DNA from: a virus
Virus record (IMG/VR): IMGVR_UViG_3300043395_002792
Span: 1-26,347 of that record
Strand: one strand, 5' to 3'
DNA: 26,347 nucleotides
Shown here piece after piece: positions 3,001 through 26,103 of the stretch; position 1 is the stretch's first letter; each line of letters starts with the position of its first letter. A program made the position numbers and the translations under genes. Below the pieces are notes generated by a model that was not told the DNA's origin, ran no database searches, and worked only from the letters and a program-made list of their open reading frames with translations.

Positions 3001-3325
3001 GTTCGCTGCCCGAGGCGCGCCACAGCTCAAGCCCCGGCGTTTCGGTATCGGCGTCGTCCTTGACCGCGAACTCACGGTCCTGCACGTGCTCTTCGGCGAC
3101 GATGGCGTCGGACGCCACGGCATCCAGCCCGCCCCATTCGTCGCCCTTGGTCAGGGCGAACGCCTTGCCCACCTGCGCAGCCAGCCCGGAGTTGCGTGCT
3201 TTCTTGCCGCTTCGCTTGGTGCCGGCCGTGAACTCGTACAGCGATAGCGACCATGCCGCGCGCTTGCGGTCGGCCGAGGCCAGCCACATCACAAGGTTGC
3301 CTAAACCGGCGCGGTTTGACCTCAT
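59..3325 (-). CDS. Tail fibre / receptor-binding protein
   Basis: A 1088-residue protein, the largest in the window and the last complete gene of the structural operon. The N-terminal third (about 1-335) is a globular part that presumably attaches to the tail. Residues 337-365 form a proline-rich hinge (PGPPVPPVPPEDPPNPP). The middle is glycine-, serine- and threonine-rich. Near residue 918 is VADGGTGASTAAAALTNLGA, a DGGTGA-type motif that recurs in phage fibre shafts. The last 130 residues are beta-rich with many threonines and end in a compact tip (GTFIPRFSRTNSAGTARV), like the jelly-roll tips of trimeric fibres. It probably trimerises and binds the host surface. The ATG overlaps the upstream stop by four bases (ATGA, 3325-3322). 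The fibre role rests on size, composition and position. The receptor cannot be inferred. Confidence 0.8.
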   Translation of the reverse strand: MRSNRAGLGNLVMWLASADRKRAAWSLSLYEFTAGTKRSGKKARNSGLAAQVGKAFALTKGDEWGGLDAVASDAIVAEEHVQDREFAVKDDADTETPGLELWRASGSEPNIRTAKPLEALVARAAKVGPGFENEHVAFPNRAQLIAHHRPDDPPINSTWVYDPGDGSRDDWRAGLHGPLRVRPWLEKFCAAAPNPRDTASSFEEESPTLALLLNATKSAGDNSGWLGAHFAAAEATLSAEAFGFAHPADDGNHRLGVGFDGTEILEGGLEAYRTKFGSRGSLLYSPLAMSPEQWPFPARSIFPVLTEIREDYTDTHAKLCGHAPGYKKLVTWVPLLDPGPPVPPVPPEDPPNPPTDDPPIKPKWPGIIRVPREGEPEPGIPNVFGGQPASHSGGDDGPTVDDVQGIYPAAGIVPPVNFGERAAAAMNQLEATSMQYRARPSLPDGRLDLRMIGTSEVDNLAGLMYGYTIQQAFESPVVADDVAAPNYLFTAPQNNDDPNQRWPVQLSNAAELSFDDAGGISGRTPARGPGSVFAVPSNVPPDWLFVENKERWTGTPNAMLRAILAGKNAAGVIIPGRGGIGLRNLAGDLVSGWQYELDYTDSATEPNINWTKRDATGANAGAGKFMVNGVELGAGAGTGDITSGSNLTTGRIPKATGVKQIDTPIDLSLGYITVDAADDTVQLLAGPGIGIELRSPTRLRFNVGGVVEMELTPGKMTVPGVIDPTGMALTGVASNPMAGDPLEDYTIWGTAAGRLFYGAEEFAFQSDLPSISGLLVAANNLSDVSSKATSLYNLLNGLGAPLSTLALSTKLGVIEGSTSVYSTFQTLLDSMSGLSASTPALSDVVPFTNSGTAKAATPQKLLDLIHSLTAKTSLTGNDEVALIDSAASNVAKRITWTNVEAQLATDGFYQAGGTDVAVADGGTGASTAAAALTNLGAMPAVNQLASANAADQDSTTTSMAAITGLSGTLEAGAKYRFQIRMRYSTLSLGGFKIDLNGGTATVTTLTYSTEILTTTGTAGSNVIAVNTTALNTALTLANNTTVTDLVCRIEGYIRVNAGGTFIPRFSRTNSAGTARVRDGCSMVLEKCT

Positions 3326-5343
3326 ACGGCCTGCCCCCCTGCAAAGCCGCCGGTTGCCCCGGCCACAACCTTGTCGCCTTCGCGCTGGGTGCGCTGGGCG
3401 TCGCGACGGAAACTGCGCTCCTGGCGCAGGGCCTCGTTGTCGGTGTTGCCGACCTCGATTTCGCTGGTGATCACGCAGCCCGAGACCCTGATCGTCACTT
3501 CGCGCACACCGCGGCCCAACGGGATGTCGAACCCGGCCAGGCCGTGCGCAACGCCTGAACCCTCAATCTTCTCGTTGATGCGGTCGATCACCACGGCGAC
3601 ACGGCGTTTGGCGTCGGCCTCAAGATCCGGCAGGTTCAGGTGCGCGCCGAAGCCGTCGGCCTCGACACCCCGAATGCTGCCCCGGTAATCGCGGATCGCG
3701 AACAGGTCGCTGCCGACTTCGAGTTCCAGCACGGGCACATCGCCGTCCGGGAAGGCTTCGATGTCGACGGCGGTCCAGCGCTCAAAGTTGTTCGGTAGCC
3801 GGCGCGTGCCGACCAGAAACACCTGCAGGGTCCATTCACGTTCGGCGGCAAAGCGCACGTCGGCCACGGTCGGAAAGTGGCGGCCGGTGAAGCTGCCGGC
3901 CAGAACACCGGCGTCGTCTTCGGGCGGGGTCGCGGCCTGCTGCACGCGCAGCTCTGGCTGTTCGTCGCGGCCGTTTGCGCCAACCATGCGGCCCAACCAC
4001 AGGCGTTCGGCGGATGCTTCGACCTGGTTGGGCGTGATGCGCAGCACCAGGTCGGCTTCGGATTCCCAGCGCGCGGTGAACGGCGCGTCGGGTGGCTCGG
4101 GGTCTTGGATCTGCTTGATGTGGCTGCGCGCGACCACGGCATTGATCAGCGTCTGCTGTTCGTCGCTGTCTTCTTCGGCGTAGGCCAGCCATTCGGTCCA
4201 CTCGCCTTTGATGCAGCGGGCGGTGAGCTGGTCAGCAAAGCGCACAGCCCCGTCTTTGTCGGTGACCTGCACGAAATAGCCGGGCTGCAGGTCCGCCCAG
4301 CCGCCGCGGCGGCCGATGCCGTCCGGGTAGACAATCTGGCGCAATGTGCGCCAGTCGCGCTTGATGATGGCGATTACACCCTTGGCGTCGGCGTCGTAGC
4401 CGGCCACGGGCTCCACCTTCGTGCCGTCGAACTTCTCGGTGTTGATGACCATGCGGATCTGGTCGTCGGTCAGGTCCGTGCGGCCGAAGCCGTGCGCCAC
4501 CAATAGTTCCGGCAGCGTGAGAAACTTGTCGCCGCTGGCGTAGACCTGGCGCAGCGACACCAGCAGCGGGTCGGGCGTAGCCGTGGCCCGTGCGTCTTCG
4601 GGCGTGGCGCGGATCGCGTGGCGCTGGTGGTACAGGCAACGGATCACGCGGGGCAGCCCGCGCACTTTGCCGGATGCGGCATCCCACGTGGGTTCGAAGC
4701 CCTCCACCCAGTTGAACGCCGCGGGGTTGATCTGGGCGGTTTCGACAGTGCCGCGTGCGCGCAGCAGCAGCTTGCCGGTGTCGTCAACCGTCACGTCGGC
4801 GTTGACGTAATCGGCGATGCGGTCCAGCGCCCGCAGCAGCTTCATGCCGCCGGTCAGAATGCCGTTTGGCAGCTCCCACTCGGCCGGAGTGTCGGCCACG
4901 ATGTCAGGGTGTTTTGCCGCCGCGAACTCCGGCACCAGGCCAGCAAGGTCGTCAAGCGCTTCACCGATCAGCGGGGCGAACGTGCCCTGCAGATAGCCGT
5001 CCTTGAACTGCAGGTTGAAATCCATCGGGCAATCGCGGTTCTCAAGGTCCTTGCGGCAATCGTACAGCACCACTTCGCAGACCATGTCGTTGACGGCGCG
5101 CACCCGCGCCACCCTCACGTCCTTGACCACGCGGGTTTCCTGCGCCGGCTGCGCGGTGTTGTCTTGCGCGGAGGTAGTGAACTCAAGGTCGGTGACGTAC
5201 GGCAGGGCTTCGAGTTCGGCCAGCTTTTCAATCGGCTGGCGCAGCGTGACCGGGCGCGGCTGCGCGCCCAGATAGAACGGCCAATCGAACTCGCAGTCAT
5301 CGAGTTCGACAGAGCCCAGCCGCACCAGTGTGCCCTCGGCCAC
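3322..5343 (-). CDS. Large virion protein, probably tail tip or hub
   Basis: A 673-residue protein that I do not recognise by sequence. It starts with GTG at 5343-5341, whose G is the last base of the upstream TAG stop (TAGTG). A G-rich stretch (GGGGG) lies about 8 nt before it, and the gene ends in an ATGA overlap with the tail fibre. Both junctions imply translational coupling. The N-terminal 130 residues contain many beta-strand-like segments (VTDLEFTTSAQDN). There is no signal peptide or membrane segment. Residues around 570-600 form a predicted helix (DLEADAKRRVAVVIDRINEK), and the C-terminus is basic and glycine-rich (ATGGFAGGQAV). Its place directly before the fibre, after a 461-residue partner, fits a tail-tip, hub or fibre-adaptor protein. 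That role is inferred only from gene order. Confidence 0.6.
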   Translation of the reverse strand: MAEGTLVRLGSVELDDCEFDWPFYLGAQPRPVTLRQPIEKLAELEALPYVTDLEFTTSAQDNTAQPAQETRVVKDVRVARVRAVNDMVCEVVLYDCRKDLENRDCPMDFNLQFKDGYLQGTFAPLIGEALDDLAGLVPEFAAAKHPDIVADTPAEWELPNGILTGGMKLLRALDRIADYVNADVTVDDTGKLLLRARGTVETAQINPAAFNWVEGFEPTWDAASGKVRGLPRVIRCLYHQRHAIRATPEDARATATPDPLLVSLRQVYASGDKFLTLPELLVAHGFGRTDLTDDQIRMVINTEKFDGTKVEPVAGYDADAKGVIAIIKRDWRTLRQIVYPDGIGRRGGWADLQPGYFVQVTDKDGAVRFADQLTARCIKGEWTEWLAYAEEDSDEQQTLINAVVARSHIKQIQDPEPPDAPFTARWESEADLVLRITPNQVEASAERLWLGRMVGANGRDEQPELRVQQAATPPEDDAGVLAGSFTGRHFPTVADVRFAAEREWTLQVFLVGTRRLPNNFERWTAVDIEAFPDGDVPVLELEVGSDLFAIRDYRGSIRGVEADGFGAHLNLPDLEADAKRRVAVVIDRINEKIEGSGVAHGLAGFDIPLGRGVREVTIRVSGCVITSEIEVGNTDNEALRQERSFRRDAQRTQREGDKVVAGATGGFAGGQAV

Positions 5344-6728
5344 TACAGCACCCCCGCGATCACTTCAAAGTCTGTCTCGGCGTCTGCCTGCGGGTCGGCG
5401 CCGACGTAGGTCCAGGAACCGGACCAACGAACGGTGTATTCCAGCGTGCCGTTCTGGCTGACCGACACGTCGGGCTGTGAAGGCGTGAAGCTGTCTTCGT
5501 CAAAGCGTTCGGCGTTGATGAAGCCCAGCGCCGGGTAACTGGGCAGGTTCTTGGCAACGACCGTGCAGTCGTGGCTTACTGTGTACATCGGCCCGTTGCG
5601 GTGTTTGTAGACGCGCGTGCCTGAGGTGCCGCCCAGCCTGCGGTTGCGCGAGGCGCGGGTAATCTTCACGTCTTCGACCAGCGAGAGGATTTCGCCCACT
5701 TCGGCGCGGCCGATGATGACAAACGTGATTTCGCCGCTGGTGCCGCTGGGCGCCCAGGCCGGTTCGTCAGGTTGTTCAATGGTCACACCAACGCGCGCGG
5801 CAAAGTGCGCGGCGATGCCTTGCAGCGCGTTGCGCACCGTGGTCTTCCATGCGCCGGCGGCAAGCAGTCCGGTGTCACTTCCGTCGAAAGTTGAATCGTT
5901 GCTGCCCTTGACCTGCAGGCTGCCCGTGATCAGCACGTTGTACCCGGGTGCCTGCCCGATGCGGCGATTAACGGGCGCCCGGGCGTTGAACTCGCCATGA
6001 TACGCGCAGGTGACCACGTCGCTGCCCACGGCCGTTGCAAGGTCGGGCGGCATGGCAGTCAAAATGCAGGTTGCGCGAAACGGGCTGAACAGTTGCGACG
6101 TCGGCGATGCCGGCTGGTTTTCCTGCCTTTGACCCGTGTACAGCGGGCTGCGAAAGCGCCAGTGCGAGCCGAGAAACGACGGGCGGCCTGTGCCTGCGCG
6201 CACGGTCTGCACCCAGGTCTTGGCATCGGCCAGAGTCTTGAACAGTGCCGACATGCTGGCGCTGCCCACGCCGTTGTCATCAAAGGCGAACTCAAGGTCC
6301 ATCGGGCCGAGCGATCCGGGCACGTCGCCGGCGCCTGTGTTGGGCGCGGCAATGCGTTCGGCGGAAAAGGTCAGCAGAACTTTGGCGGCCAGCGCGCCTT
6401 CTTCTTTGAACAGCTTGCACGAAGTGCGGGCCCATGCTCCGGTTGAAACCTTCAGCGACGCGAGTTCCGAACCGCTGGTGTACTCAAAGACCAGGTCGAA
6501 GTTGACCAGGGCAGCTTGTGCTTCCAGTGCGTCCAGTGCGCTTTTCAGGTTGGCCGTGGTGTCGCGCTGGACCTGCACCAGAAACTCCATGACTGCGCTG
6601 TCAGGCCCGATCTCGCCCTTCAACGCGGGCCCCTCTGGCAGCATGAGCAAACAACCCGTGGTGGTACTGGTGCTGCCGGTTTCGGCGCTGTCGATGATGT
6701 ACGTGCCGATCTTGAGCCTGACCGCCAT
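5343..6728 (-). CDS. Virion protein of unknown family, tail region
   Basis: A 461-residue protein starting at ATG 6728 with AAGGG about 9 nt upstream. It is rich in beta-prone stretches and small residues, with no signal peptide, membrane span or coiled coil. There are two broadly similar halves: residues 1-170 (VRLKIGTYIIDSAETGS, then a helix with DTTANLKSALDALEAQAAL) and residues 250-461 (VNRRIGQAPGYNVLITGS, then WKTTVRNALQGIAAHFAAR). Both halves have a strand-rich start followed by one helix, so an internal duplication is possible. The TAGTG junction couples it to the 673-residue downstream gene. A distal-tail or tail-tip role is inferred from position. I do not recognise the family. Confidence 0.55.
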   Translation of the reverse strand: MAVRLKIGTYIIDSAETGSTSTTTGCLLMLPEGPALKGEIGPDSAVMEFLVQVQRDTTANLKSALDALEAQAALVNFDLVFEYTSGSELASLKVSTGAWARTSCKLFKEEGALAAKVLLTFSAERIAAPNTGAGDVPGSLGPMDLEFAFDDNGVGSASMSALFKTLADAKTWVQTVRAGTGRPSFLGSHWRFRSPLYTGQRQENQPASPTSQLFSPFRATCILTAMPPDLATAVGSDVVTCAYHGEFNARAPVNRRIGQAPGYNVLITGSLQVKGSNDSTFDGSDTGLLAAGAWKTTVRNALQGIAAHFAARVGVTIEQPDEPAWAPSGTSGEITFVIIGRAEVGEILSLVEDVKITRASRNRRLGGTSGTRVYKHRNGPMYTVSHDCTVVAKNLPSYPALGFINAERFDEDSFTPSQPDVSVSQNGTLEYTVRWSGSWTYVGADPQADAETDFEVIAGVL

Positions 6729-6745
6729 GGTGTTACCCTTTGCGC

Positions 6746-6967
6746 ATGAGCAAGCTGCCCAAACCGCCCGAAGCCGATGTTCTCAACCAGCGCGTGGTTG
6801 ACCTGCAGAACCGGGTTGATGCCCTGGAGCACAAGCGCGGCCTGACTTGGGAGCAAATCTGGTTGATCACTGGGTGGATCTTCATCGTATGCCCGGTCTT
6901 CTGGAGCCTGATCAGCTTGGTTTTGTGGCTTCTGTTCCCGACCATGTGGCCGTTCTCGGCCTTTTAG
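6746..6967 (+). CDS. Small coiled-coil plus membrane-anchor protein on the opposite strand
   Basis: A 73-residue protein (MSKLPKPPEADVLNQ...), the only convincing plus-strand gene in the window. It fills a 235-bp hole between two minus-strand genes. Residues 9-30 form a short heptad-like helix (DVLNQRVVDLQNRVDALEH). Residues 37-64 are a strongly hydrophobic membrane segment rich in Trp, Ile and Leu (IWLITGWIFIVCPVFWSL). The ATG at 6746 is preferred to an in-frame TTG at 6740. No good Shine-Dalgarno is visible. The stop (TAG) overlaps the convergent minus-strand stop within the four bases TTAG at 6964-6967. This topology could suit a superinfection-exclusion or lysis-timing protein, which is inference. 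The absence of a competing minus-strand gene here and the well-formed domains are the main support. Confidence 0.6.
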   Translation: MSKLPKPPEADVLNQRVVDLQNRVDALEHKRGLTWEQIWLITGWIFIVCPVFWSLISLVLWLLFPTMWPFSAF

Positions 6968-7788
6968 TCGCCCTCGCCGGCCATCATTCTCTTCTGTCCG
7001 CTGTTGATCGCGTTCAGCCGCGCCAACTCTTGCCCGTGGCGCACCTGCTCCTGGCGTTCCGCGTGGTAGCGCAGGGCCGTGCCGTGGCGCAGGCCGACGG
7101 GCAGGGTCTCGTTGGCCAGGCCAGCCAGAGCCTTATCAAGCTGGTCGCGCGACTTGCTGTTGACCACGGCGATGCGGGCTTCCTCGGCTTCCGCTTCGCG
7201 GCGTTCGGCCTCTGCCGCTTGCCGCCGGGCCCTGCGCATGGCCGCGCGCCTGGCTGCGTCTTCCGCGGCCTGCTTGGCCGGGTCGAGGCTGGCCAGCAGT
7301 TCCTCGACTTCCGCTTCGGCTTGTTCCTTGCTTCGGCCACCGAACAGGCGGCGCAAGCTGCCGGCCACATTGGCAACCGGGCGCTGAAAATACCCGGCGA
7401 TGTTGTCGCGCGCGTCGCGAAGCACCTGCCCGGCGCTGGGGTTGGTGCGCAGATAGTCGGCCAGGTCGGCCGCATTGTCTGCCAGGCGTTCGGTGCCATG
7501 CAGGGCGATGTGCGTGGCGGCAAAGGCGCCCAGCCCGCCGCCGGTGATGCCGCGGGCCAGCGCGCCCGGCTTGAACCCGCCCTTGCCCAGCGCCAGCATG
7601 TTGCGGGCGCTGAAGAAGTTCGCGGCGCGGGATTTCAGGCTCAGGCGTTCGGCGTCGGCCTGCGCGGCCTTGGCCTGTTCGGCCTTCAGGCGCAGGCGTT
7701 CCATGGCGGCCGCGACGGTGTTGGTCTTGGCAACCGCCTGTTGCTCGCCTTTGACTTCGATCTGCACGTCTGTGCGTTCGATGGTCAT
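6964..7788 (-). CDS. Helical virion-associated protein, possible short tape-measure or internal protein
   Basis: A 274-residue protein with ATG at 7788 in an ATGA overlap with the upstream stop. The same frame stays open much farther upstream (to 8526), but that part reads against a real gene. Residues 1-60 are a charged helix. Residues 66-98 are a glycine/alanine-rich, mildly hydrophobic stretch (GGFKPGALARGITGGGLG). Residues 155-210 are an Ala/Glu/Arg-rich coiled coil (AARRAAMRRARRQAAEAE). Helices flanking a hydrophobic glycine-rich core are typical of tape-measure and ejected internal proteins, but this one is much shorter than usual tape-measure proteins. The position between tail-tube-like and tail-tip genes agrees. 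The assignment is inference. Confidence 0.6.
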   Translation of the reverse strand: MTIERTDVQIEVKGEQQAVAKTNTVAAAMERLRLKAEQAKAAQADAERLSLKSRAANFFSARNMLALGKGGFKPGALARGITGGGLGAFAATHIALHGTERLADNAADLADYLRTNPSAGQVLRDARDNIAGYFQRPVANVAGSLRRLFGGRSKEQAEAEVEELLASLDPAKQAAEDAARRAAMRRARRQAAEAERREAEAEEARIAVVNSKSRDQLDKALAGLANETLPVGLRHGTALRYHAERQEQVRHGQELARLNAINSGQKRMMAGEGD

Positions 7789-8471
7789 GCAGTCATCCGA
7801 TCCAGTCGCAGCGTGATCAGCGCCGCTGCTTTGCCCGATAGTTGCCGCTTGCTGGCGCCCTTGAGGTTGCCAATGTGCTGGGCAACGGCTTCGTTGATCT
7901 GCCCGTTGATGTACACCGAGTCGCGGCGCGCGATGTTGCCCAGGCCCGGCGCCTTCTGGTCGGCGAAGTGCCCGATGTAGCTGTTGACCGCAAAGCTGCG
8001 CCGGTTTGTCAGCAGCCGTGTTACGCCGACGGCCACCACGGACTTGTCTTTGATGACGCGCTTGCCTGCCAGGTTGCGCATGGCCTTGCCCAACGTCGCG
8101 CGGCCGGTGATCGTCAGGTTGGGCCGGGTTAGGTCGATGCTGAAGCCGGACGGGTACTTGATGAATGCCAGCGGGCTGCGAATCGTTTTCAGGATGCCCT
8201 TCCGCGCGACACCCCGGCGTTTGTCCAGGCCGAGCTGTTCCTTGCGCTTGCCCCAGGCATCGCCGTAGGGCGCGATGGGCACGATCTGCCCGGCCTTGTT
8301 GGCATAGAAACCCTGCGCAAAGCGCGTGTACATGCGCTTGAACACTTCGCGCCCGGCGATCTGGGCGGCACGGACGGCGCGTTGCTTGACCGCTGCCAGC
8401 GCACGCTGAAACGCCCGCAGGCTCTGCGTTGCCCCACTTGTGGCCCTGCGGATGTCGCCGATGTCGGCCAT
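7785..8471 (-). CDS. Basic virion protein of unknown family
   Basis: A 228-residue, strongly basic protein starting at ATG 8471, three bases after the upstream TAG. The first 60 residues are helical and rich in Arg and Ala (ATSGATQSLRAFQRALAAVK). Residue 65 onward contains short conserved-looking pieces such as APYGDAWGKRKEQLGLDKR and SGFSIDLTRPNLTITGRATL. No membrane segment or signal is present. The combination of a helical N-terminus and a WGKRK-type motif resembles tail-completion or neck proteins, in which a statement of the type 'P.W.K.' is frequent, but I would not assign the family. The ATGA overlap with the 274-residue downstream gene suggests coupled expression. Confidence 0.6.
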   Translation of the reverse strand: MADIGDIRRATSGATQSLRAFQRALAAVKQRAVRAAQIAGREVFKRMYTRFAQGFYANKAGQIVPIAPYGDAWGKRKEQLGLDKRRGVARKGILKTIRSPLAFIKYPSGFSIDLTRPNLTITGRATLGKAMRNLAGKRVIKDKSVVAVGVTRLLTNRRSFAVNSYIGHFADQKAPGLGNIARRDSVYINGQINEAVAQHIGNLKGASKRQLSGKAAALITLRLDRMTA

Positions 8472-8474
8472 GTT

Positions 8475-9020
8475 CTACGGCAGGCTGTACGCGGTGTTCA
8501 GGGCCGCATACGTGCCTTCCTTCCATGCCTGTTTGGTTCCATCCAGACTGCGCTTGGTCAGCAGGATCAGGTTGCTTCCTTCAAACCGTTTCGTGTTTCG
8601 TGCCCACACCAGCTTCTTTACGCTTTCGGGGTGCAGCGTCACGCGCGGGCTGTACCAATAGTTGTCGTAGGCCGTGGCCAGCGGTCGGATTACCAGCGAG
8701 TAGCTTGGCGGCATCCCGTACAGACCCACGCTGTTGCCACCGCTGGAATCGAGCCCCGTGCCCGTGCTGGCCAGCATCATCAGCAGCTTGTAGGTGTTGG
8801 CGTCGACATTGTGCAAAGGCAGGTACAGCGCGGGCGGCCTTCTGGGCACGCGCACTGTCGTCCATGCGTCGGCTTCAAGGCCGCTGCCGTGGACCTCGAC
8901 GTCGCTACCGTCGTCGAACTCGATCCGGTCCTCAAGGATGCCGGTCAGCAACGTGCCGCTGGCCCCGTCCACTTGGGTCGGGGCCAGGTACACCTTGCCT
9001 GCCAGTGCGAATACAGCCAT
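8475..9020 (-). CDS. Possible tail tube / major tail protein
   Basis: A 181-residue protein. An in-frame TTG at 9029 would add three residues, but the ATG at 9020 with GGAA about 6 nt upstream is the better start. The N-terminus MAVFALAGKVYLAPTQVDG is followed by ILEDRIEFDDGSDVEVHGSG and a beta-rich remainder. A short protein beginning with a 'G.V.LAP' strand and then a long beta-rich body is common among tube-forming tail proteins. The order (tail-terminator-like, 559-residue protein, this gene, tape-measure-like) is compatible with that. I cannot exclude a generic head-tail connector. Confidence in the gene is high, but in the tube role only moderate. Confidence 0.6.
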   Translation of the reverse strand: MAVFALAGKVYLAPTQVDGASGTLLTGILEDRIEFDDGSDVEVHGSGLEADAWTTVRVPRRPPALYLPLHNVDANTYKLLMMLASTGTGLDSSGGNSVGLYGMPPSYSLVIRPLATAYDNYWYSPRVTLHPESVKKLVWARNTKRFEGSNLILLTKRSLDGTKQAWKEGTYAALNTAYSLP

Positions 9021-9029
9021 GGGTTCCAA

Positions 9030-10709
9030 TCAAGCTGCGGTGCCGGAGATCGTGATTTCGTAAGTGCCTTCGCTGGCGTCGTTGTTGTCGATGCGAATGG
9101 TCAGGCTGAACGCGCCAGCGCCACCGTCGGTCACGCCGACTGTCACGTCCAGGTACGACTGTGGCGGGATGGCCTGCGGCACCGACAGCCCGGCAGTTGT
9201 CAGCGTGGCGTTGGTTGCCCCGCCAACGTCTACCGGCACACCAATCGAAAGCGGGCCGTTGCCGCTGTTGTAGACGCGCAGGGTCACGGTGTGTTCGGTT
9301 GAGGCTGCGACCGTGCCCAGCGCAATCGTGCCGCCGTCTGCGACGTTGCTGCCGTTGCGCGTAATGCCGATTTCGGGTGCCGGCGGCGCCGTGTCGGCAA
9401 TGGTCGGGCTTGCGGCCTCGGGCAGATAGGCGTTCACGCGGTCGGCTGTTCGGTGATAGGCGAAGTACAGCGCCCGCGCGTTGCGGCCGTCGCTGGTCAT
9501 TGTGTCGGCCAGGCTGAAGGCCGGAGTCAGCAGGTTGATCGTGCTGATGCCCGTGCGCGACCAGTGCCCATAGAACGGGCCGTCAAACTGCTTGTAGACC
9601 TGCCCGCCCATGAACCCGAAGTTGATGTAGTTGCTGGAATCCGTGCCGCTGGTGAAAGCGAACTCGATTGCGAGTGTGGCGCCGGCCGTGTCGAAGTTTC
9701 GCGGGTACAGGTCCTTGTCGCGGTCCAGGCGCAGGTAATTCCACCCTGCACTCAAGCCGGCCATGGTGAAGACTTGGGTCTTGTTTCCCCACGTGACCGT
9801 GATGTTGCCGACTGGCGTGCCGGTCTTGTAGATAGCGGGCAGGTAGTTGCGCGGCAGGCGCCGGTGCTGGTTGTTGATCACCAGCGGCTGGGTGAACGTG
9901 CGCGATGTGCTGTTGCCGTACATCTTGTGTGAGCCGGTCAAGCCGCGGTACTTGATGCTGGTGTCCCACGTGTGCACCGGGCTGCCCGACTTGGTCAACA
10001 CCCACGGGCCTTGCGTCGTGTCGCCCGACAGGTCCCCGCCGTTCGTGTTGGTGCTGAGCCCCTGATTCAATGCCGGCGCGCCCACGATGCCGTCGCCCGA
10101 GTAGGCGTCGTTAACCGCCTGGATGCTGAGTTCGCCGTCAGGACCCAGCAGGTTGAAGATGTCCGCGCCCTTGGTGCGCGACTTGATGGTGATGATGCTG
10201 GCGTACTGGCTTGGCTTGCTGGTCACGTACAGATCGACCGTCTGGTTGTGTAGGCCTGCCGCGATCGGGCTACCGTCTTCGTCGACCGTCAGGCGGTCAA
10301 TCACCCCGTTGTCGGTCGCGCTGGGCTCGGCAGCGTAGCTCACTTTGCGCGGCATGATGCTCAGATTGTTGGCTGCCATGTGCGCGCGAATGTCGGCCAA
10401 CAGCAGGGCCCGGCTTCGGAACGGGCGGTTGCCCTTGACGTAAGCGCTGGGCTGGCTGAGTTGCGTGCCCCAGTAAGCGATCACCGTGTCCATCTTGGAC
10501 GCCCAGCGTTCGGTGATTGCCCGGTAGGCCGCACGGTCGGCATTGATGTCGTTCTGCACAGCTACGCGCCCGGGGTCGCCGGCGGGCAGCACGTCTAGCT
10601 CGGCTTCGAACGCGGCCTTCAGCGCAAGCTGGCATGTGATGTTCGTGTGCTCGCTCAGAATGTCTTCGCAGGCATCGGTGAACATGTCGTAAGCGTCGGA
10701 TAGGGCCAT
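9030..10709 (-). CDS. Virion protein ending in an Ig-like (choice-of-anchor D / ASH-type) domain
   Basis: A 559-residue protein, ATG at 10709 with GGAG about 8 nt upstream. Residues 1-125 are helical and acidic (ALSDAYDMFTDACEDILSEH). The middle (about 130-440) is beta-rich with Trp/Tyr-rich stretches that look like a carbohydrate-binding or virion jelly-roll fold (YINFGFMGGQVYKQFDGPFY). Residues 445-559 resemble the Ig-like choice-of-anchor D / ASH group: a leading PEIGITRNGSNVADGG strand, a central VTLRVYNSGNGPLSI and a terminal SLTIRIDNNDASEGTYEI, where IDNNDxxE is the usual signature. Such Ig-like modules decorate phage tails and heads and weakly bind surface glycans. It may be a tail or decoration protein. 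The domain call is by motif only. Confidence 0.65.
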   Translation of the reverse strand: MALSDAYDMFTDACEDILSEHTNITCQLALKAAFEAELDVLPAGDPGRVAVQNDINADRAAYRAITERWASKMDTVIAYWGTQLSQPSAYVKGNRPFRSRALLLADIRAHMAANNLSIMPRKVSYAAEPSATDNGVIDRLTVDEDGSPIAAGLHNQTVDLYVTSKPSQYASIITIKSRTKGADIFNLLGPDGELSIQAVNDAYSGDGIVGAPALNQGLSTNTNGGDLSGDTTQGPWVLTKSGSPVHTWDTSIKYRGLTGSHKMYGNSTSRTFTQPLVINNQHRRLPRNYLPAIYKTGTPVGNITVTWGNKTQVFTMAGLSAGWNYLRLDRDKDLYPRNFDTAGATLAIEFAFTSGTDSSNYINFGFMGGQVYKQFDGPFYGHWSRTGISTINLLTPAFSLADTMTSDGRNARALYFAYHRTADRVNAYLPEAASPTIADTAPPAPEIGITRNGSNVADGGTIALGTVAASTEHTVTLRVYNSGNGPLSIGVPVDVGGATNATLTTAGLSVPQAIPPQSYLDVTVGVTDGGAGAFSLTIRIDNNDASEGTYEITISGTAA

Positions 10710-11475: not shown

Positions 11476-12038
11476 TAGAACACCCTCACGCGCGAGCCCA
11501 GCTTGGCCCGCGTTCGCGATGCGGAGGTTGTGGCCGGCTTGGTATCGCGCCGGCCTTCCGTTCGCCGTCTGGCGGCCTCCCAATCGTTTTGCCGGTCGGC
11601 CATGTAGCGTTCGGCCATGCGGGCATCCTTGGCCAGCAGAACAAGTATCTGCCCACCACGGACTTTGCGTTCGGCCACGTACTCCGCGTAGCCCACGTCG
11701 CCCTGCAGCTTGCTCTCTTCCCAGCGGATGGTTGCCCGGCCGCGCGAGACAGCGCCAATGGTCCAGTACCCGCCGCTGTCGAGGTGGTCCTGCAGGTTCC
11801 CGGTCGCCGTGCCGACCTTGAGGGACAGGCCCTCGGCAGCCTTGCGCTGGTCTGTGGCCTCGGTATTGGCCGGCATCTTGCGCCCGGCCGCACGCTCGTT
11901 GGACCAGTCCTTGGCGATGCGTTCATCGATCTGTTCGGCAACGTCGCCGAGCCAATCCTGCACCTCACGGCGCGCAATCTCGGGATTCAGGCCCGAGATC
12001 GTCAGGGTGCTGCCGCCTGTGATGCTGGCCCGAATCAC
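11475..12038 (-). CDS. Probable tail-completion (HK97 gp10-like) protein
   Basis: A 187-residue protein with a GTG start at 12038-12036 in a GTGA overlap with the upstream stop. An N-terminal beta hairpin (SITGGSTLTISGLNPEIA) is followed by a helix with WLGDVAEQIDERIAKDW. Then come MPANTEATDQRKAAEGLSLK and TATGNLQDHLDSGGY, reminiscent of the 'tG.L..s' segment of virion-morphogenesis / gp10-like proteins. GYAEYVAERKVRGG resembles their usual 'YA..~e.G' element. The C-terminal 35 residues are very basic. Position and motifs agree with a head-tail joining role. A computed structure would decide. Confidence 0.5.
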   Translation of the reverse strand: MIRASITGGSTLTISGLNPEIARREVQDWLGDVAEQIDERIAKDWSNERAAGRKMPANTEATDQRKAAEGLSLKVGTATGNLQDHLDSGGYWTIGAVSRGRATIRWEESKLQGDVGYAEYVAERKVRGGQILVLLAKDARMAERYMADRQNDWEAARRRTEGRRDTKPATTSASRTRAKLGSRVRVF

Positions 12039-12397
12039 TGGCGGCCCTCCAGCTTGGCGCGAAGGCCGTTGATGATTGCCGAGTCCTGGGCCTTTTCCTT
12101 GCGCAGGCGTTCGAGTTCTTCGCGCTCGGCCTGGGTCAGGGGTGGCTTCACGCGCGCCGGTCTTGCCGGCAGCTTTTCGGTATCGCGGGTGGCTTCGTCG
12201 TCTTCGGCATCCGGTTCAAGGGCGGCGACGATGTCGGCCTGCGAGACCTGCCCGTTGACGTTGCGCGCGGCGTCAGCCGTGATCAACTGGTCCAGCGCGA
12301 ACAGCGCCTGGCTGTCGCACAGGTTGGCGTGCGTAGCCGTGGCCGCGTGGATTTCGCGGCGGGCTTTGATAAGGATGTCGCGGACGGTTGGGGTCAT
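12035..12397 (-). CDS. Small charged protein, unknown function
   Basis: A 120-residue protein whose ATG at 12397 overlaps the upstream stop (TGATG). The frame is open to 12604, but the extension is Arg-rich antisense-like sequence and is not used. Residues 1-45 look helical (MTPTVRDILIKARREIHAAT). Residues 50-80 are acidic (ADIVAALEPDAEDDEATRD). Residues 85-120 form a coiled coil (TQAEREELERLRKEKAQDSA). Such N-terminal 'IL..AR..I' helices appear in head-tail connector proteins. I would treat it as hypothetical. Confidence 0.6.
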   Translation of the reverse strand: MTPTVRDILIKARREIHAATATHANLCDSQALFALDQLITADAARNVNGQVSQADIVAALEPDAEDDEATRDTEKLPARPARVKPPLTQAEREELERLRKEKAQDSAIINGLRAKLEGRQ

Positions 12398-12885
12398 CAG
12401 CCGGTCACTTTCTCGACCAGTGCCCTCAGCTCGGGCGTTGCTTTGGAAGCCAGTTTCTCGACGACGACGGCCTTCACTTCCGGAGTGTCTTCGATGTCCT
12501 GAATCAGCTTCCGGCCGGCGCGGGCCTCTTGGTTTTTCTTGCGTGCCCAGATGCCGATACCGGTGGCCCCCAGAGTCAGCACCCCGGCGGCAAGATCGCC
12601 CCATGGCGGCGGGATCAACCCTTTGGCCATCGTCGCGCCTTGCTTGAGCACGCCCCCATCTTCGGGATAGACCATCACCGGGTCGTTGGGCTTGCCGTCT
12701 GGCGCTACGGGCTGCGTCGTTTCCTGTCCGTCGGCCGTCACATAGATCGGCTTGCCGTCTTCGGTCTTGGCCTGCACCTTCGGACCCGCCAGCAGTGCGC
12801 AGCCATTCAGCGCCATGTAGGCACCGAACAGGAGGGCCAGCAGCAAGGCAAGCATCGAAGCGTTGGTCATGGGTTTGACGGTCAT
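12397..12885 (-). CDS. Two-segment membrane protein
   Basis: A 162-residue protein starting at ATG 12885, with AAGGA about 8 nt upstream and an ATGA overlap with the lipoprotein gene. Residues 11-30 form a first membrane segment (MLALLLALLFGAYMALNGCA). The LNGC within it resembles, but does not fully match, a lipobox. Residues 40-90 are a hydrophilic loop. Residues 97-115 form a second hydrophobic segment (GDLAAGVLTLGATGIGIWAR) followed by Arg/Lys. A helical, charged C-terminus follows. It sits in a run of four small membrane-associated genes. A holin, holin-like protein or inner-membrane spanin component would fit, but no family match is claimed. Confidence 0.65.
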   Translation of the reverse strand: MTVKPMTNASMLALLLALLFGAYMALNGCALLAGPKVQAKTEDGKPIYVTADGQETTQPVAPDGKPNDPVMVYPEDGGVLKQGATMAKGLIPPPWGDLAAGVLTLGATGIGIWARKKNQEARAGRKLIQDIEDTPEVKAVVVEKLASKATPELRALVEKVTG

Positions 12886-13079
12886 TTGCCGATCCTTTCG
12901 TTCATGCCGGGCGGGTCGTCGGTTCCCGCCTCCAGTGTCTGTGCTGTGCGCCACTGCAGGCGCCCATCCTTGTGCCGCACTTCAATCGTCAGGCTGACCG
13001 ACTTCGTCACCCCTGGCTTCGGAGCGCTCGCGCAGCCTGCGCTCAATAACACGGCGATAAGCAGCCAGAGCCCGCGCAT
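12882..13079 (-). CDS. Small lipoprotein, possible outer-membrane spanin or exclusion protein
   Basis: A 65-residue protein with ATG at 13079 and a strong GGAGG about 8 nt upstream. Residues 1-16 are a signal peptide with a clear type II lipobox (LIAVLLSAGCAS), so Cys16 is the expected lipidation site. The mature part (about 50 residues) contains a beta-rich LTIEVRHKDGRLQWRTAQ and ends charged. The length fits phage Rz1-like outer-membrane spanins, but Rz1 is usually proline-rich and this is not. It overlaps the next membrane gene by ATGA. The lipoprotein call is firm. The lysis role is inference. Confidence 0.75.
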   Translation of the reverse strand: MRGLWLLIAVLLSAGCASAPKPGVTKSVSLTIEVRHKDGRLQWRTAQTLEAGTDDPPGMNERIGK

Positions 13080-13112
13080 GCACTTCCTCCAGCGTTTCGC
13101 CGGCTACGTTCC

Positions 13113-13214
13113 TCAGCGGCCCAGAATGTGGACGCACAAGGCCGTCGCCAGCAGGCCCAGGATCGCCAGCACCAGGACCTTTGATTCCCATTTCATCCGG
13201 CGCCACCAGATCAC
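13113..13214 (-). CDS. 33-residue single-span membrane peptide
   Basis: This small gene fills the space between the 114-residue gene and the lipoprotein gene. It starts with GTG at 13214-13212, in a GTGA overlap with the preceding stop, and has a strong GGAGGT five bases before it. An alternative ATG at 13196 would give 27 residues but has no good Shine-Dalgarno. The peptide begins MIWWRRMKWESK and continues into one hydrophobic segment (VLVLAILGLLATALCVHILG). The basic, Trp-rich start predicts an N-in topology. It could be a pinholin-like or lysis-regulating peptide. That role is inference from topology and neighbours. The reading frame, ribosome site and exact overlap are seen directly. Confidence 0.65.
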   Translation of the reverse strand: MIWWRRMKWESKVLVLAILGLLATALCVHILGR

Positions 13215-13555
13215 CCTGACCTCCGCGGCACATCGCCCGTTGACCTGCGCAGCAGGGTCTTCACGTCGGACTTGAGCTCCTTCAGGTCTTCGTGCATCCG
13301 GTCAACCTTGGTGCGCAGCTCGGTGTGAATCTGCGCGTCCTGGCGTTCATGGTCTGCCTGGCCCTGGCGCACGGTCTGGATCGCCGACCACTGTTCGCGC
13401 TCGGCGTTTTCCTCGCGGGCCTCTTCGCGGGCCTGCTTGTCGTCGGCGGCCTTGCGACGGATCGCCTTGACGATGCCTGACCCAACCTCTTTCAGGCCCG
13501 ATCCCAGCACGCCGAAACCTGCCGCGATTGCATACATAGTTGCCTCGTCGGGCAT
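13211..13555 (-). CDS. Small membrane-anchored or amphipathic coiled-coil protein
   Basis: A 114-residue protein starting at ATG 13555. Residues 7-28 are moderately hydrophobic and glycine-rich (MYAIAAGFGVLGSGLKEVGS), which may be a membrane anchor or an amphipathic helix. Residues 33-105 are a long charged helix or coiled coil (ADDKQAREEAREENAEREQW, then ELRTKVDRMHEDLKELKSDV). The anchor-plus-coil architecture resembles inner-membrane spanins (Rz) or small virion coiled coils. It lies at the start of the membrane gene cluster. Neither assignment is certain. Confidence 0.65.
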   Translation of the reverse strand: MPDEATMYAIAAGFGVLGSGLKEVGSGIVKAIRRKAADDKQAREEAREENAEREQWSAIQTVRQGQADHERQDAQIHTELRTKVDRMHEDLKELKSDVKTLLRRSTGDVPRRSG

Positions 13556-13558
13556 GCC

Positions 13559-14338
13559 CTACCCCCGGTACAGCTTGATCATCCCCGACCTCAGGTTCTG
13601 GTCGGCCTTGCCGTCGCGCTCGTAGTCGAACTGGATGCTGATGCCCTTGAACTCCTCGCGCGCCAGTTCCAGGTACTGCACCGCCCGGTCGGCGAACTGT
13701 TCACCGCGGCCCAACGTCGCCATGTGCATCGCCAGCAGCGCGTGACAGCGCGCGAAGTCCCCGGTGCGCACAATGTGGGCAAGCAACGGGCGGCCCCATT
13801 CGTCGTAACGAAGTTCGCCCTCGGCCTGGGCCAGAATCCACTTGTCCAGCTTGCGCTTGGCCTCGACCAACAGAGCCTCAAAGCGTGTGTTCGCCGCGCC
13901 GCTTGGGTAGGCGCCACTGTTGAGCAGGCTGGCGGCGTTGCGTTCGATGCGCACCAAATCGTTTTCGTCGGCGTAGCCAACCACCACGTCAAGGGTCGCG
14001 TCTTCGTCGGGGTTGGTGCCCGGCGTGCCATTGTCGACGTCGGCACTGCCGGTGATGCCACTGGTATTGTCGGCCGCCAAAGTCACTTTGCCGCCGCTGA
14101 TGGTTCCGCTGCACACTTCATCGGTGCCCGCGTACACACCCGGCCCGCGACGGCGCACGCTGAAATCCGTGCCGACAATCGCGATCCACATGCGCCCATC
14201 GTCGGACCAGGCCTTGAGGCCAGCGCTCGTGGTCGGTGTCGCGCCCCATCCGGTCAGCACCAGGCGCGAAACACGCGCACGGCCTGTGCGGCAATCGCTC
14301 AGGCTGTACGCTTCGCTGATGTTGGCTGCGCTGGTCAT
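13559..14338 (-). CDS. Virion protein of unknown family
   Basis: A 259-residue protein with ATG at 14338 in a TGATG overlap with the upstream stop. The frame is open to 14485, but the upstream part is low-complexity antisense-like sequence. The N-terminal 115 residues are beta-rich (ARVSRLVLTGWGATPTTSAG, RMWIAIVGTDFSVRRR) with a glycine-rich strand-turn body. Residues 130-259 are helical (NDLVRIERNAASLLNSGAYP, FEALLVEAKRKLDKWILAQA) and end with the conserved-looking NLRSGMIKLYRG. It lies within the head-to-tail block and may join head and tail. I do not recognise a specific family. Confidence 0.55.
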   Translation of the reverse strand: MTSAANISEAYSLSDCRTGRARVSRLVLTGWGATPTTSAGLKAWSDDGRMWIAIVGTDFSVRRRGPGVYAGTDEVCSGTISGGKVTLAADNTSGITGSADVDNGTPGTNPDEDATLDVVVGYADENDLVRIERNAASLLNSGAYPSGAANTRFEALLVEAKRKLDKWILAQAEGELRYDEWGRPLLAHIVRTGDFARCHALLAMHMATLGRGEQFADRAVQYLELAREEFKGISIQFDYERDGKADQNLRSGMIKLYRG

Positions 14339-15402
14339 CAGGCCGCGCGCTCCATGCTCATGCCCACCGTGCCGAACTGAAGGCTCTTGGCCGCACCTTC
14401 CAGGGCCTTCACCGACAGGAACGGCAGCAGCGTCTTGTTGGTTGCCAGCGCCGGAGTCATGGCGACTTTGACGCCATTGATCCACACGTGGGCCTTGCGG
14501 TCGGCGTCAATGGCGATGTCCACCGCATACTCGGTGTCGGCCTCCATGGCGATGCCGGTATCAATCACGGCGTCGGTGCCTCCGATGCTGTAGATGACAA
14601 CCAGATTGGGCTGGGTGACGTAAGGATCGCCCTCTCCCGGTGTGGTCAGCGAGCCGTCAAACCACACGCCGACCTGGTCGTTGTCGGTCGTCAGATTGTG
14701 GGCGTTGGTCAGGGCCAGCGCGCACTTGACGGACATCAGGTCGATGTCGGCGGCGCGGAAGGTTCGCGACAGGATCGGCCGCAGTTCCGATTTCACGCCC
14801 TTGGCCCATCGGGTGTCGTTGGCGTTGGTCAGCCGCGGCTGAAGGATGGCGCTGTCGTCTTCGGCGCCTGCCGTGGTCATAATCAGGCCGCCGCTGGCCG
14901 CTGCCATCGTGACTTTGGCGCTTGTCATGTTCGTGCCGGCCACCTCAAAGTCGGCGTTGGCCTGCATGATGTTCGTGAGTTTCAGCGCGAGCTTGGCAAT
15001 CGCGTCCGCCACCGGGCCCTGGTCTGCGGCCGAGCCACCGGTCGTGATCTCGGCCAGCGTGTTCGGGGTGCCAGCGCTGCCGCCGCTGCTGTCGGTCAGG
15101 AACGTGACGTCGGCTGCCAGAAATGGGCGCTTGCTGAAGCGCTCGATCAAGGCAAAGCGTGAAGGGGTTTCCAGCGCCATGCCGCCCATTGCCTGGCGTA
15201 GACCGGCCACGCTGTCGATGCCGCTGTAAGGGTCGACCAGCCAGATCGCCTGGCCCGGCGTATCGTCAACGCACACATAGGCGATGCCGGTGCGCGTGTC
15301 GATCCAGCGCGAGCCTTCGGTGAAATCCAGCCCGGCATCGTCGACAACTGTGGGCTGCGTCGTCGCGGTCAGGTTGTGTTTCTGCGGAAGCGTGATGGAC
15401 AT
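14338..15402 (-). CDS. Virion protein with a possible lectin-like (ConA/LamG) C-terminal domain
   Basis: A 354-residue protein. The ATG at 15402 with GGGAA about 9 nt upstream is preferred to an ATG at 15429 that lacks a Shine-Dalgarno. Residues 8-57 (HNLTATTQPTVVDDAGLDF, then GSRWIDTRTGIAYVCVDDT) match an element often seen at the start of phage fibre or spike proteins, where a 'GS.W.D..t..aYvc' strand pair occurs. Residues about 225-345 are strand-rich with DADRKAHVWINGVKV, the typical 'h.v.idG' of LamG/ConA-like lectin folds. It may be a capsid or tail decoration with glycan binding. Both domain calls are by motif. Confidence 0.55.
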   Translation of the reverse strand: MSITLPQKHNLTATTQPTVVDDAGLDFTEGSRWIDTRTGIAYVCVDDTPGQAIWLVDPYSGIDSVAGLRQAMGGMALETPSRFALIERFSKRPFLAADVTFLTDSSGGSAGTPNTLAEITTGGSAADQGPVADAIAKLALKLTNIMQANADFEVAGTNMTSAKVTMAAASGGLIMTTAGAEDDSAILQPRLTNANDTRWAKGVKSELRPILSRTFRAADIDLMSVKCALALTNAHNLTTDNDQVGVWFDGSLTTPGEGDPYVTQPNLVVIYSIGGTDAVIDTGIAMEADTEYAVDIAIDADRKAHVWINGVKVAMTPALATNKTLLPFLSVKALEGAAKSLQFGTVGMSMERAA

Positions 15403-22432: not shown

Positions 22433-22886
22433 CGGTCAGCAGCGCTTTGAGCACATCCAGCGGGACTGTTGACAGGTCAACACTGGCTTTGATCGGCCCG
22501 CCGTCGGCCCCCGTGTGTTCCTGGGTCAGCTTGTCGCCGTAGACGCGGGGTTTCAGCTTGGAGGCCACCCACTTGCGCGCGTCAACACGCAGGCGCATGG
22601 CGTTGTAGTTCTTGGGGGTCGCGCGGTCGGCCAGTTCCACGATCGCGTCGGCCATCACGTCGGCCTGGTCTTCACGTGCGCGCGCGTACATGTGCGTGAA
22701 TTCCGCGATCTCCCGCCGCCATTTCATCACGGTCGTATACGACGGCGCCCACGCGAGTTTGCAGATCGCGACCAGGCTTTTGCCTTGCGCGATTTCGCGG
22801 CATACACGCTCGGCCAGCGCCTTGCGATACAGTGCGGGCGCGCCGACTGGCCGTGGTGTGGCTTTGCGCTTGGCTTTGCGCGCCAT
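22404..22886 (-). CDS. terS: Terminase small subunit
   Basis: A 160-residue DNA-recognition subunit of the packaging motor. Residues 36-60 form a helix-turn-helix (SLVAICKLAWAPSYTTVMKW) that would bind the packaging site. Residues 62-80 are the oligomerisation helix (EFTHMYARAREDQADVMAD), and RKWVASKLKPRVYGDKLTQE is the very common tail of this family. The acidic C-terminus (TDDDPADEDT) may contact the large subunit. The ATG at 22886 overlaps the upstream stop as TGATG; an immediately preceding GTG (22889) would add one residue. A GAGGAAG lies 5-10 nt upstream. Confidence 0.9.
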   Translation of the reverse strand: MARKAKRKATPRPVGAPALYRKALAERVCREIAQGKSLVAICKLAWAPSYTTVMKWRREIAEFTHMYARAREDQADVMADAIVELADRATPKNYNAMRLRVDARKWVASKLKPRVYGDKLTQEHTGADGGPIKASVDLSTVPLDVLKALLTDDDPADEDT

Positions 22887-23038
22887 CACTCTTCCTCGCC
22901 GCCCCCGATGCGCACGGAGGTCTTCTGTGTCCCGCCGGGCTGAAGCACACGCACGACGTTGGCCTTCACGCGCGGCTTGCCCTTGGCTTTTGGCTTGCGT
23001 GAGTCACCCTTGATGATTCGCAGGTTGGGTTTGTTCAT
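22886..23038 (-). CDS. 50-residue basic protein before terminase
   Basis: A small, lysine- and arginine-rich protein (MNKPNLRIIKGDSRKPKAKG...) ending in an acidic GGGEEE. It starts at ATG 23038 and ends in a TGATG overlap with the small terminase. No canonical Shine-Dalgarno is seen. A TGCTACACT extended -10-like string on the minus strand (23053-23045) would place the transcript start at or next to the ATG, suggesting a leaderless message. The NLRIIKGDSRK start recalls the N-terminus of some small terminase proteins. It could be a DNA-binding accessory of packaging or an inhibitor linked to the neighbouring CRISPR-Cas locus. Neither can be supported from sequence alone. Confidence 0.55.
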   Translation of the reverse strand: MNKPNLRIIKGDSRKPKAKGKPRVKANVVRVLQPGGTQKTSVRIGGGEEE

Positions 23039-23044
23039 GGGTTC

Positions 23045-23053
23045 AGTGTAGCA
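23045..23053 (-). promoter_or_regulatory. Candidate extended -10 promoter for the packaging genes
   Basis: The minus strand reads TGCTACACT, that is a TG one base before TACACT. No -35 match is seen at 17 nt (GCGCGA), which extended -10 promoters can lack. The expected start is at the ATG of the 50-residue gene. It is a string match in a 70-bp gap and may be chance. Confidence 0.25.
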
Positions 23054-23090
23054 CGGAGGCCTTGCTATCGCGCCTGTTCCGGAGCTTACT

Positions 23091-23106
23091 GCCCGTCTCT
23101 CCGGGC
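23091..23106 (-). terminator. Weak hairpin just after the effector stop codon
   Basis: GCCCG (23091-23095) and CGGGC (23102-23106) form a 5-bp stem with a 6-nt loop, two bases after the TGA (23111-23109). No U-tract follows (AGTAAG), so it is not a classic intrinsic terminator. It may end or stabilise the effector message. Confidence 0.3.
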
Positions 23107-23108
23107 TG

Positions 23109-24329: not shown

Positions 24330-24339
24330 TTTCGTTTCC

Positions 24340-24379: not shown

Positions 24380-24418
24380 CAGGTTCAGGCGTCAGGTTCA
24401 GGCGTCAGGTTCAGGCTT
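24380..24418. repeat. Three tandem 13-bp repeats between degenerate repeat and array
   Basis: CAGGTTCAGGCGT occurs at 24380-24392 and 24393-24405, and once more at 24406-24418 with one change (CTT instead of CGT at the end). With four preceding bases it fills all 43 bp between the degenerate and the first perfect CRISPR repeat, where one spacer of 30 bp would be expected. Confidence 0.85.
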
Positions 24419-24652
24419 CCTGTGACTACCCCGCATTGGACGGCCAACCACACCTGGTACGCCGATGTGAAGGCGTACCTCTCTCCTGTGACTACCCCGC
24501 ATTGGACGGCCAACCACACCCGCGCAGTCGGTTTGGTTGTCTGTGAACAGCCTGTGACTACCCCGCATTGGACGGCCAACCACACCCAGGATTGGGCGCG
24601 GCCGTTGTCGCGATGACCTGTGACTACCCCGCATTGGACGGCCAACCACACC

Positions 24653-25482: not shown

Positions 25483-26103
25483 TTATTCCGCGAGCAGCGC
25501 CCGTTGCGCACTGGCAACCAGGGCCACTCGGACAATCACGCCGGGACGTTCGCCCGGTCGTGCGAATCTTTTGAACGCCGGCAATGCCACCACGACTTTG
25601 CCGACTGGATCTGTGATGCTTGAACCCACGATCTGCCCGTCGTCTTCGACCAGCACGCCGGTCAACCCGTCACGCACCGCGCGCACCAGCTTGTCTTCAT
25701 CGCGCTTGAACACCGGCCATTCCGAGCCCGCGTTGATCGAGTTGCCCGCTGCCGGCTTGCCGTGCTTGTTCAGAACCTCACGCGAAAGGCGGAACTCACA
25801 ACCAAGCAACACCGGCTTGTAGGCGCCGATCGGTGACCGGCCGGCCATGAACGTGCGCGCCGCGGCGTTGACCTGTTTGCGCCATGCGTCAAGCCTCGGG
25901 TCGTCGGCCTTGACGATGCAGCGGTTGGCGTTTTGCGACCAGAAAGCCACCATCGAACCTTCGGGCACTGGCTCGCCATCGACGTTGAATGCGTACACTG
26001 TGGCCGGCAGAAACTCCGGGGGCTTGCCCTGAACCTGGCGCGTCAATGCCGCCCGGATCACGGGGTTCTGCATCGCCTGCTCGGTTGTCATGCGTGCGGT
26101 CAT
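25483..26103 (-). CDS. rusA: RusA-type Holliday-junction resolvase
   Basis: A 206-residue homolog of RusA, a dimeric nuclease that resolves four-way junctions in phage DNA replication or before packaging. The family signature is KRDEDKLVRAVRDGLTGVL (Asp135, Asp137, Asp145) followed by VEDDGQIVGSS (Asp154/Asp155), the acidic residues that bind metal in RusA. The usual 'kPD.DN..Ka..D.L.g' motif has changed to kRDEDKLvRAV, with Asp positions kept. The N-terminal 35 residues are an extra part compared with E. coli RusA (120 residues). The ATG at 26103 sits in an ATGA overlap with the methyltransferase; an alternative ATG at 26091 would remove four residues. Confidence 0.85.
   Translation of the reverse strand: MTARMTTEQAMQNPVIRAALTRQVQGKPPEFLPATVYAFNVDGEPVPEGSMVAFWSQNANRCIVKADDPRLDAWRKQVNAAARTFMAGRSPIGAYKPVLLGCEFRLSREVLNKHGKPAAGNSINAGSEWPVFKRDEDKLVRAVRDGLTGVLVEDDGQIVGSSITDPVGKVVVALPAFKRFARPGERPGVIVRVALVASAQRALLAE

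Follow-up and report, generated by a model that had tools for sequence, protein, structure and literature searches.

A putative overlapped two-component spanin locus with a frame break among the head and tail genes of a phage contig

We analysed the DNA of IMG/VR virus record IMGVR_UViG_3300043395_002792 (26,347 bases, possibly a genome fragment; this whole stretch is called the window in the following) and focused on a cluster of four short minus-strand open reading frames (ORFs), A to D, located at 13555-12397. The best-supported reading of the cluster is a role in lysis, specifically that of spanins. At its core we propose, at roughly even chances, an overlapped two-component spanin locus, in which the inner-membrane subunit (i-spanin) consists of ORF B and an open frame downstream of it (the tail), interrupted by a break in the reading frame, and in which the lipoprotein encoded by ORF C is the outer-membrane subunit (o-spanin). 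We favour this reading because the cluster combines: i) lipoprotein C; ii) a transmembrane (TM) peptide; iii) an overlapping second frame; and iv) a position comparable to that of the lysis genes of two other phages, PAE1 of Pseudomonas and CN1 of Bordetella. The Kongari survey of spanins describes spanin genes as short, overlapping and often overlooked by gene callers (PMC6139136).

All four ORFs that an earlier note on this DNA had placed at 12397-13555 are present (Table 1). A codon-usage score that was trained on 17 window genes, and that has a mean per codon of about 0.86 for random pieces read in frame and of about -0.86 for those read out of frame, amounted to 0.74 for A, 0.81 for B, 0.44 for C and 0.81 for D. 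The duplex energies of the ribosome sites were -10.0, -10.7, -9.3 and -5.5, respectively; those of A, B and C are stronger than the sites of nine out of ten other window genes picked for comparison (nine ranged from +0.6 to -7.4, the tenth was -12.2). Because of its codon usage and its ribosome site, a chance origin of B is unlikely despite its shortness. The genes had been described as all coupled, which holds for A and B (an exact GTGA overlap) and for C and D (ATGA), but B and C are 33 nucleotides (nt) apart and do not overlap; the outer junctions measure 3 nt (upstream gene and A) and 1 nt (D and gene E).

The 33-residue single-span peptide with a strong ribosome site and exact overlap that the note had seen in B was recovered as such: a strong TM segment spans residues 13-31 (hydropathy 2.73) and is preceded by R5, R6 and K8. 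By hydropathy and charge B would thus be an N-terminal inner-membrane anchor with its N-terminus inside (N-in), as is expected of an i-spanin. The lipobox LSAGC of C, also noted before, fits the consensus and is followed by Ala at +2, and by the +2 residue rule for lipoprotein sorting C is predicted to reside in the outer membrane. A scan for lipoprotein signals among the minus-strand ORFs shorter than 220 residues yielded three in the window, namely C, D and one frame that runs across the repeats of the clustered regularly interspaced short palindromic repeats (CRISPR) type described below. The start of C lies downstream of the B stop and in +1 of the open tail frame, which is the placement of an o-spanin gene, and the best-supported reading of C is a putative o-spanin-type lipoprotein.

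The tail, which the earlier note did not mention, is the -1 frame relative to B. This frame is mostly non-coding under B, turns coding-like at the B stop (from about 13116), remains open past that stop and extends over the first part of C until it ends in a stop codon at 12982. The total score in a change-point scan peaks (43.6) when the switch is placed after the last sense codon of B; placing it one codon before that gives 43.1, and two codons before, 41.6. Over its 43 codons the tail scores 0.34 per codon, a value that was reached by none of the open out-of-frame 43-codon stretches of the 17 window genes (0 of 1602 in +1 and 0 of 2647 in -1, with maxima of -0.02 and -0.05); the 32 tail codons under C score 0.11, which was likewise not reached out of frame (0 of 2258 and 0 of 3279, maxima 0.10 and 0.09). 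Because C has an unusual composition, we further drew new codons for C while holding its protein constant. For the overlap by itself this gave P = 0.014 with genome codon weights (285 of 20,000) and 0.027 with uniform weights, and the reverse test, for the C frame given the tail protein, gave 0.004 and 0.036. In a joint test, in which the C codons were redrawn and the free intergenic bases were randomised while the ribosome site was kept, P was 0.0019 and 0.0025 (75 and 100 of 40,000) with the tail counted from 13110, 0.0080 from 13113 and 0.0074 from 13116; with uniform weights the values were 0.0045, 0.010 and 0.010, in the same order. We rate the support from these tests as moderate. The spanin pairs of PAE1 and CN1 (embedded, with longer overlaps of 66 codons each; the CN1 start was set by eye) served as comparison. 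When the o-spanin was fixed, P for the i-spanin frame was 0.00265 and 0.0027, and the converse test gave 0 of 20,000. As a separate observation, the spanin genes of these two phages (loci L005, 9789-10358, and L010, 16367-16933) contain an embedded +1 lipoprotein frame with an ISGC lipobox that is unannotated in the tables shown.

The ORFs, the sequence signals, the codon usage and the open tail frame are thus observed directly; from them we infer the membrane locations, the i-spanin unit and all functions that follow. The i-spanin gene would start at the GTG of B (13214), B would provide the N-in TM anchor, the tail in the -1 frame down to 12982 would form the helical periplasmic part, and C, read in +1 within the tail, would be the o-spanin, an outer-membrane lipoprotein. 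Upon degradation of the peptidoglycan the spanin pair would join, and the inner and outer membranes would be fused. The break within approximately 13128-13113 may be an assembly error, a real frameshift in the phage or a site of recoding; the last is the least likely of the three, because the B frame has no classic slippery heptamer. Programmed frameshifting at an X-XXY-YYZ heptamer was thus rejected, as was a separately started tail gene, for which the candidate starts have weak ribosome sites only. A and D would be co-translated membrane-associated accessories, probably also for lysis, A as a tethered coiled coil laid out like a releasin and D as a lipoprotein laid out like a u-spanin (unimolecular spanin).

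The position of the cluster was compared with that of lysis genes in relatives. The portal and capsid proteins are distant kin of those of Yuavirus-type, Ruegeria and Caulobacter phages (about 29-38% identity), and PAE1 and CN1 (Mesyanzhinovviridae) are relatives by portal protein. In these two of the nine GenBank relatives inspected, an annotated Rz-like spanin, a holin and an endolysin are encoded with the capsid region on one side and the head-tail genes on the other, a place comparable, not identical, to that of the cluster, which follows a gene taken for a connector. In RcRudolph, one of the other seven, a lytic transglycosylase is encoded upstream of the terminase.

A series of observations weighs against the two-component spanin locus. 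In the other seven GenBank relatives, the displayed stretch that follows the capsid gene lacks any annotated lysis gene (one of these stretches ends about 2.5 kb after the capsid gene), and no convincing lipoprotein/TM pair was seen in 44 loci that match the capsid protein and have 3.5 kb or more of sequence behind the match (seven lipobox ORFs were found, one with a partner, which was judged chance). Because of these relatives and loci, the position supports a lysis role via the Yuavirus side only. As sequenced, no single open frame joins B to the tail, so that the TM segment is not followed by a periplasmic domain in its own frame. No holin or endolysin was recognised near the cluster, and the searches of viral contigs, genome contigs and phage records set out below turned up nothing related to A, B, C, D or the joined spanin. 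The Rz-like spanin matches of C among the PHROGs have E values of 0.13 and 0.28 only. Apart from the lipobox cysteine, C and the tail have no cysteine; about 4% of the published spanin pairs lack periplasmic cysteines (PMC6139136). The overlap-only test is modest and its controls come close (0.07 and 0.26 where the alternative frame runs under B, 0.053 and 0.035 in the remainder of C), the joint P climbs from 0.002 to 0.008-0.010 once one poor codon at the start of the tail is counted, and the P values are somewhat optimistic because the tests followed a visual discovery of the tail.

The lack of relatives rests on several kinds of search. Exact-peptide scans with C and D in the viral contigs and with D in the genome contigs, and a degenerate DNA pattern derived from B in both, returned nothing from these collections, which may leave out the window's own or very near records. 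Searches of phage records by tblastn with A and the joined i-spanin returned nothing either, and the joined i-spanin has no spanin-family match in the PHROGs; its one below-cutoff Pfam match (TetR_C_12, E 0.014) was judged chance. The same judgement was made for D, for which tblastn with E up to 10 listed four phage records at 0.4 or worse and for which a search of 40 chosen whole records behind the loci gave one 24-residue match (E 0.0047, 11.7 bits); A had no match in these 40 records. Alignment scans found relatives of the portal protein encoded at no fewer than 593 loci and relatives of the major capsid protein at 155; of each set the best 80 were retained. Compared with these and the GenBank loci, window proteins had matches with E ≤ 0.001 only for head genes (terminase, portal, scaffold, major capsid protein and a 156-residue protein), followed by a 133-residue protein at about 0.001-0.002; weaker matches of D (0.077), gene E (0.052) and a 187-residue protein (0.02-0.04) were judged chance. 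Exact-peptide scans with the major capsid protein, the terminase and a 673-residue tail protein recovered no relatives.

It is possible, though we consider it somewhat unlikely, that B is a finished single-span peptide acting as a small holin, as a pinholin or in the regulation of lysis, that C and its ribosome site happen to leave the -1 frame open, and that C is a lone lipoprotein. The given sequence ends B at 13113, a strong ribosome site precedes B, its codon usage is normal and its TM segment clear, the P values for the overlap alone are modest (0.014-0.027) and the joint P can be as weak as 0.010. The joint values of 0.002-0.010 and the frame switch at the B stop argue otherwise, as does the 33-nt gap before C, which is the only one of more than 3 nt from the gene before A to gene E. 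A pinholin assignment by family was rejected, since B has no holin match among the PHROGs, where two families of unknown function only were listed (E 0.18 and 0.20). We consider B likelier to be the beginning of an i-spanin, with its TM segment, than a pinholin in its entirety. Of the lysis cassette of pinholin, spanins and holin that the earlier note had suggested, the spanins are the best-supported element, the pinholin is the less likely reading of B, and D does not show a clear two-span holin layout. A lone "33-residue membrane peptide" that is likelier half a spanin calls for caution in naming mini-holins from single contigs.

A slimmer possibility, and one compatible with the spanin pair, is that D is a unimolecular spanin (u-spanin), with a lipid anchor in the outer membrane and a weak C-terminal span in the inner membrane, and that the neighbouring pair is redundant or decaying. 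D had been taken for a two-span protein, and two hydrophobic stretches are indeed present, but the second is weak and the first ends in the lipobox-like LNGC. Behind this motif follow a middle part of about 66 residues, a weak Gly/Ala-rich span at about 96-114, basic residues and a helical C-terminus, and this order of lipobox, middle, span and basic residues is that of T1 gp11. LNGC departs from the consensus, although it is among the lipobox deviations listed for spanins in the survey, and C29 is the only cysteine of D, in line with the survey's 58 u-spanins, none of which has a periplasmic cysteine (PMC6139136). Unlike T1 gp11, D has a second span with a hydropathy of 1.26 only (2.97 in gp11), which is followed by 48 residues instead of 8; its structure model is of low confidence (mean pLDDT, the predicted local distance difference test, 57.4) and contains a single short strand, and no sequence relative of D was found. 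We therefore describe D as u-spanin-like in layout and do not call it a u-spanin.

That D is instead a two-span inner-membrane holin with both termini inside seems unlikely. It has two hydrophobic stretches, the second of which is followed by basic residues, and it lies next to spanin-like genes; the loop between the spans would be about 60 residues long, the second span is weak, the first ends in the lipobox-like motif and no holin family is matched. Somewhat less probable still is that the phage holds a two-component pair (B with the tail, and C, the i-spanin being interrupted by the frame break) beside a u-spanin D and was caught in the middle of the replacement of one system by the other. 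The spanin survey assigns each of its 677 genomes one kind of spanin or none (PMC6139136, Table 1); if both kinds are present here, the locus would be a natural test of such a replacement.

In agreement with the earlier note, no endolysin was recognised in the window in PHROG scans of 30 entries, which include alternative frames or starts, and Pfam scans of 20, partly the same; at least two small ORFs near the contig end, at 22886-23164 and 26100-26345, were outside these scans. No holin was recognised in the ORFs scanned, and the Phage_lysozyme family had no match in the record (control families were found in 3 of 14 genomes). These absences say little, because the record may be a fragment. 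That neither gene adjoins the cluster would suit a superinfection-exclusion or envelope-modifying module unrelated to lysis, and small phage lipoproteins that block receptors, such as T5 Llp and Cor, exist. We consider this improbable: no positive evidence emerged for the exclusion module that had been proposed as an option, the genes sit within the head-to-tail order and mostly overlap their neighbours, so that late expression is expected, and the lysis genes of PAE1 and CN1 occupy a comparable place.

The least probable option concerns A, which could be a releasin in the manner of Mu gp25 and free a signal-anchor-release endolysin encoded in a missing part of the genome. A had been described as a coiled coil with a hydrophobic start; the coiled coil stands (a single-sequence model gives one helix at 4-106, mean pLDDT 84.8), but the start is weak, with a best 19-residue mean of 1.05 and K22 and E23 inside the stretch. 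Its layout suggests N-out/C-in tethering and is releasin-like: A and gp25 share an N-terminal hydrophobic stretch that begins after about four residues and is followed by an RR motif and a coiled-coil-like, in gp25 cytoplasmic, part (PMC9239132). In contrast to gp25, A has the weaker stretch and a following part that is not acidic (19 acidic and 21 basic residues), and no match to DUF2730 (PF10805) was listed with E up to 10, a search in which Mu gp25 scores 2.5e-13 and in which the HMMER filters drop most weak matches. With BLASTP at E 0.99 against gp25, A was rejected as a DUF2730 protein. According to that study, DUF2730 occurs in active phages only among transposable ones (PMC9239132), and the head genes of the present phage resemble those of other phages. 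A matches a holin/anti-holin PHROG (E 0.0032) and XhlA (E 0.21) over the coiled coil only, and convincingly matches no holin family.

Table 1. Positions and properties of the cluster ORFs, the tail frame and the flanking genes
Feature	Position	Strand	Properties
ORF A	13211..13555	-	114 residues; coiled coil; weakly hydrophobic, uncharged residues 5-21 after MPDE; IRRK at 32-35
ORF B	13113..13214	-	33 residues; GTG start; GTGA overlap with A; basic N-terminus; one TM segment
Frame-change stretch	13113..13128	-	B frame to tail frame; sequence error, mutation or recoding
Tail frame	12982..13112	-	-1 frame relative to B; stop 12984-12982; overlaps C; charged, helix-like by eye
ORF C	12882..13079	-	65 residues; lipobox LSAGC, Ala at +2; mature part 50 residues; +1 relative to tail frame
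ORF D	12397..12885	-	162 residues; ATGA overlap with C; hydrophobic start ending LNGC; helical C-terminus
Upstream flanking gene	13559..14341	-	ends 3 nt before A; no family match when scanned as longer ORF to 14485
Gene E	12035..12397	-	120 residues; 1-nt overlap with D; no family match; flanking gene outside the cassette

The structural genes of the window are on the minus strand and comprise the small and large terminase, portal, scaffold and major capsid protein, followed by genes that are taken for neck and tail, with a possible tail fibre among them (PHROG E 0.0012). The cluster is situated between a gene taken for connector-like, by its position and a helical C-terminus read by eye only, and gene E; beyond E lie the 187-residue protein, which is taken for gp10-like by eye and has as its sole match a weak PHROG of unknown function, and the tail genes. 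The 559- and 673-residue proteins of the tail region (3322-10709) had no match in 50,697 phage records, and no long tape-measure-like gene is visible by eye in the ORF lists. The 559-residue protein (9030-10709) has weak, below-cutoff C-terminal matches to immunoglobulin-like domains (DUF1573, HYDIN-like). Near the terminase genes, a compact Cas12-type protein of 406 residues is encoded on the minus strand (23109-24329), with PADLOC matches to Cas12u3 (E 9.7e-37) and Cas12f (2.4e-34) and with relatives of solved structure from E 9e-27, those named Cas12f1 from 8e-15. It adjoins an array of four near-identical 37-nt repeats with a 66-nt spacing (24418-24652, with a fifth, degenerate copy at 24339), and together they constitute a small phage-borne CRISPR system. 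A RusA-like resolvase (PHROG E 1e-12) is found at 25483-26211, and an 81-residue ORF at the contig edge (26100-26345) carries what we take to be a DNA-methyltransferase-like motif.

Taken together, the cassette is an orphan that is probably lysis-related, while the kind of locus is already known: for its 677 genomes, the Kongari survey counts 228 overlapped, 182 embedded and 118 separated spanin pairs, and more than 120 i-spanins have no predicted coiled coil (PMC6139136). Relative to PAE1 and CN1, no similarity of the cassette proteins was found. The cluster differs from lambda Rz/Rz1 and P2 LysB/LysC in that its TM segment and helical part are in different frames in the contig, in the lack of a periplasmic cysteine and in that no sequence similarity was found. 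It resembles them in the N-terminal TM segment with its basic, N-in flank, in the charged, helix-like second part and in the lipoprotein in the +1 frame that overlaps the end of the putative i-spanin. The combined periplasmic length of about 100 residues would fall within the 62-300 given in the survey (PMC6139136), and the +1 position of C relative to the tail is as described for lambda, T7 and P2.

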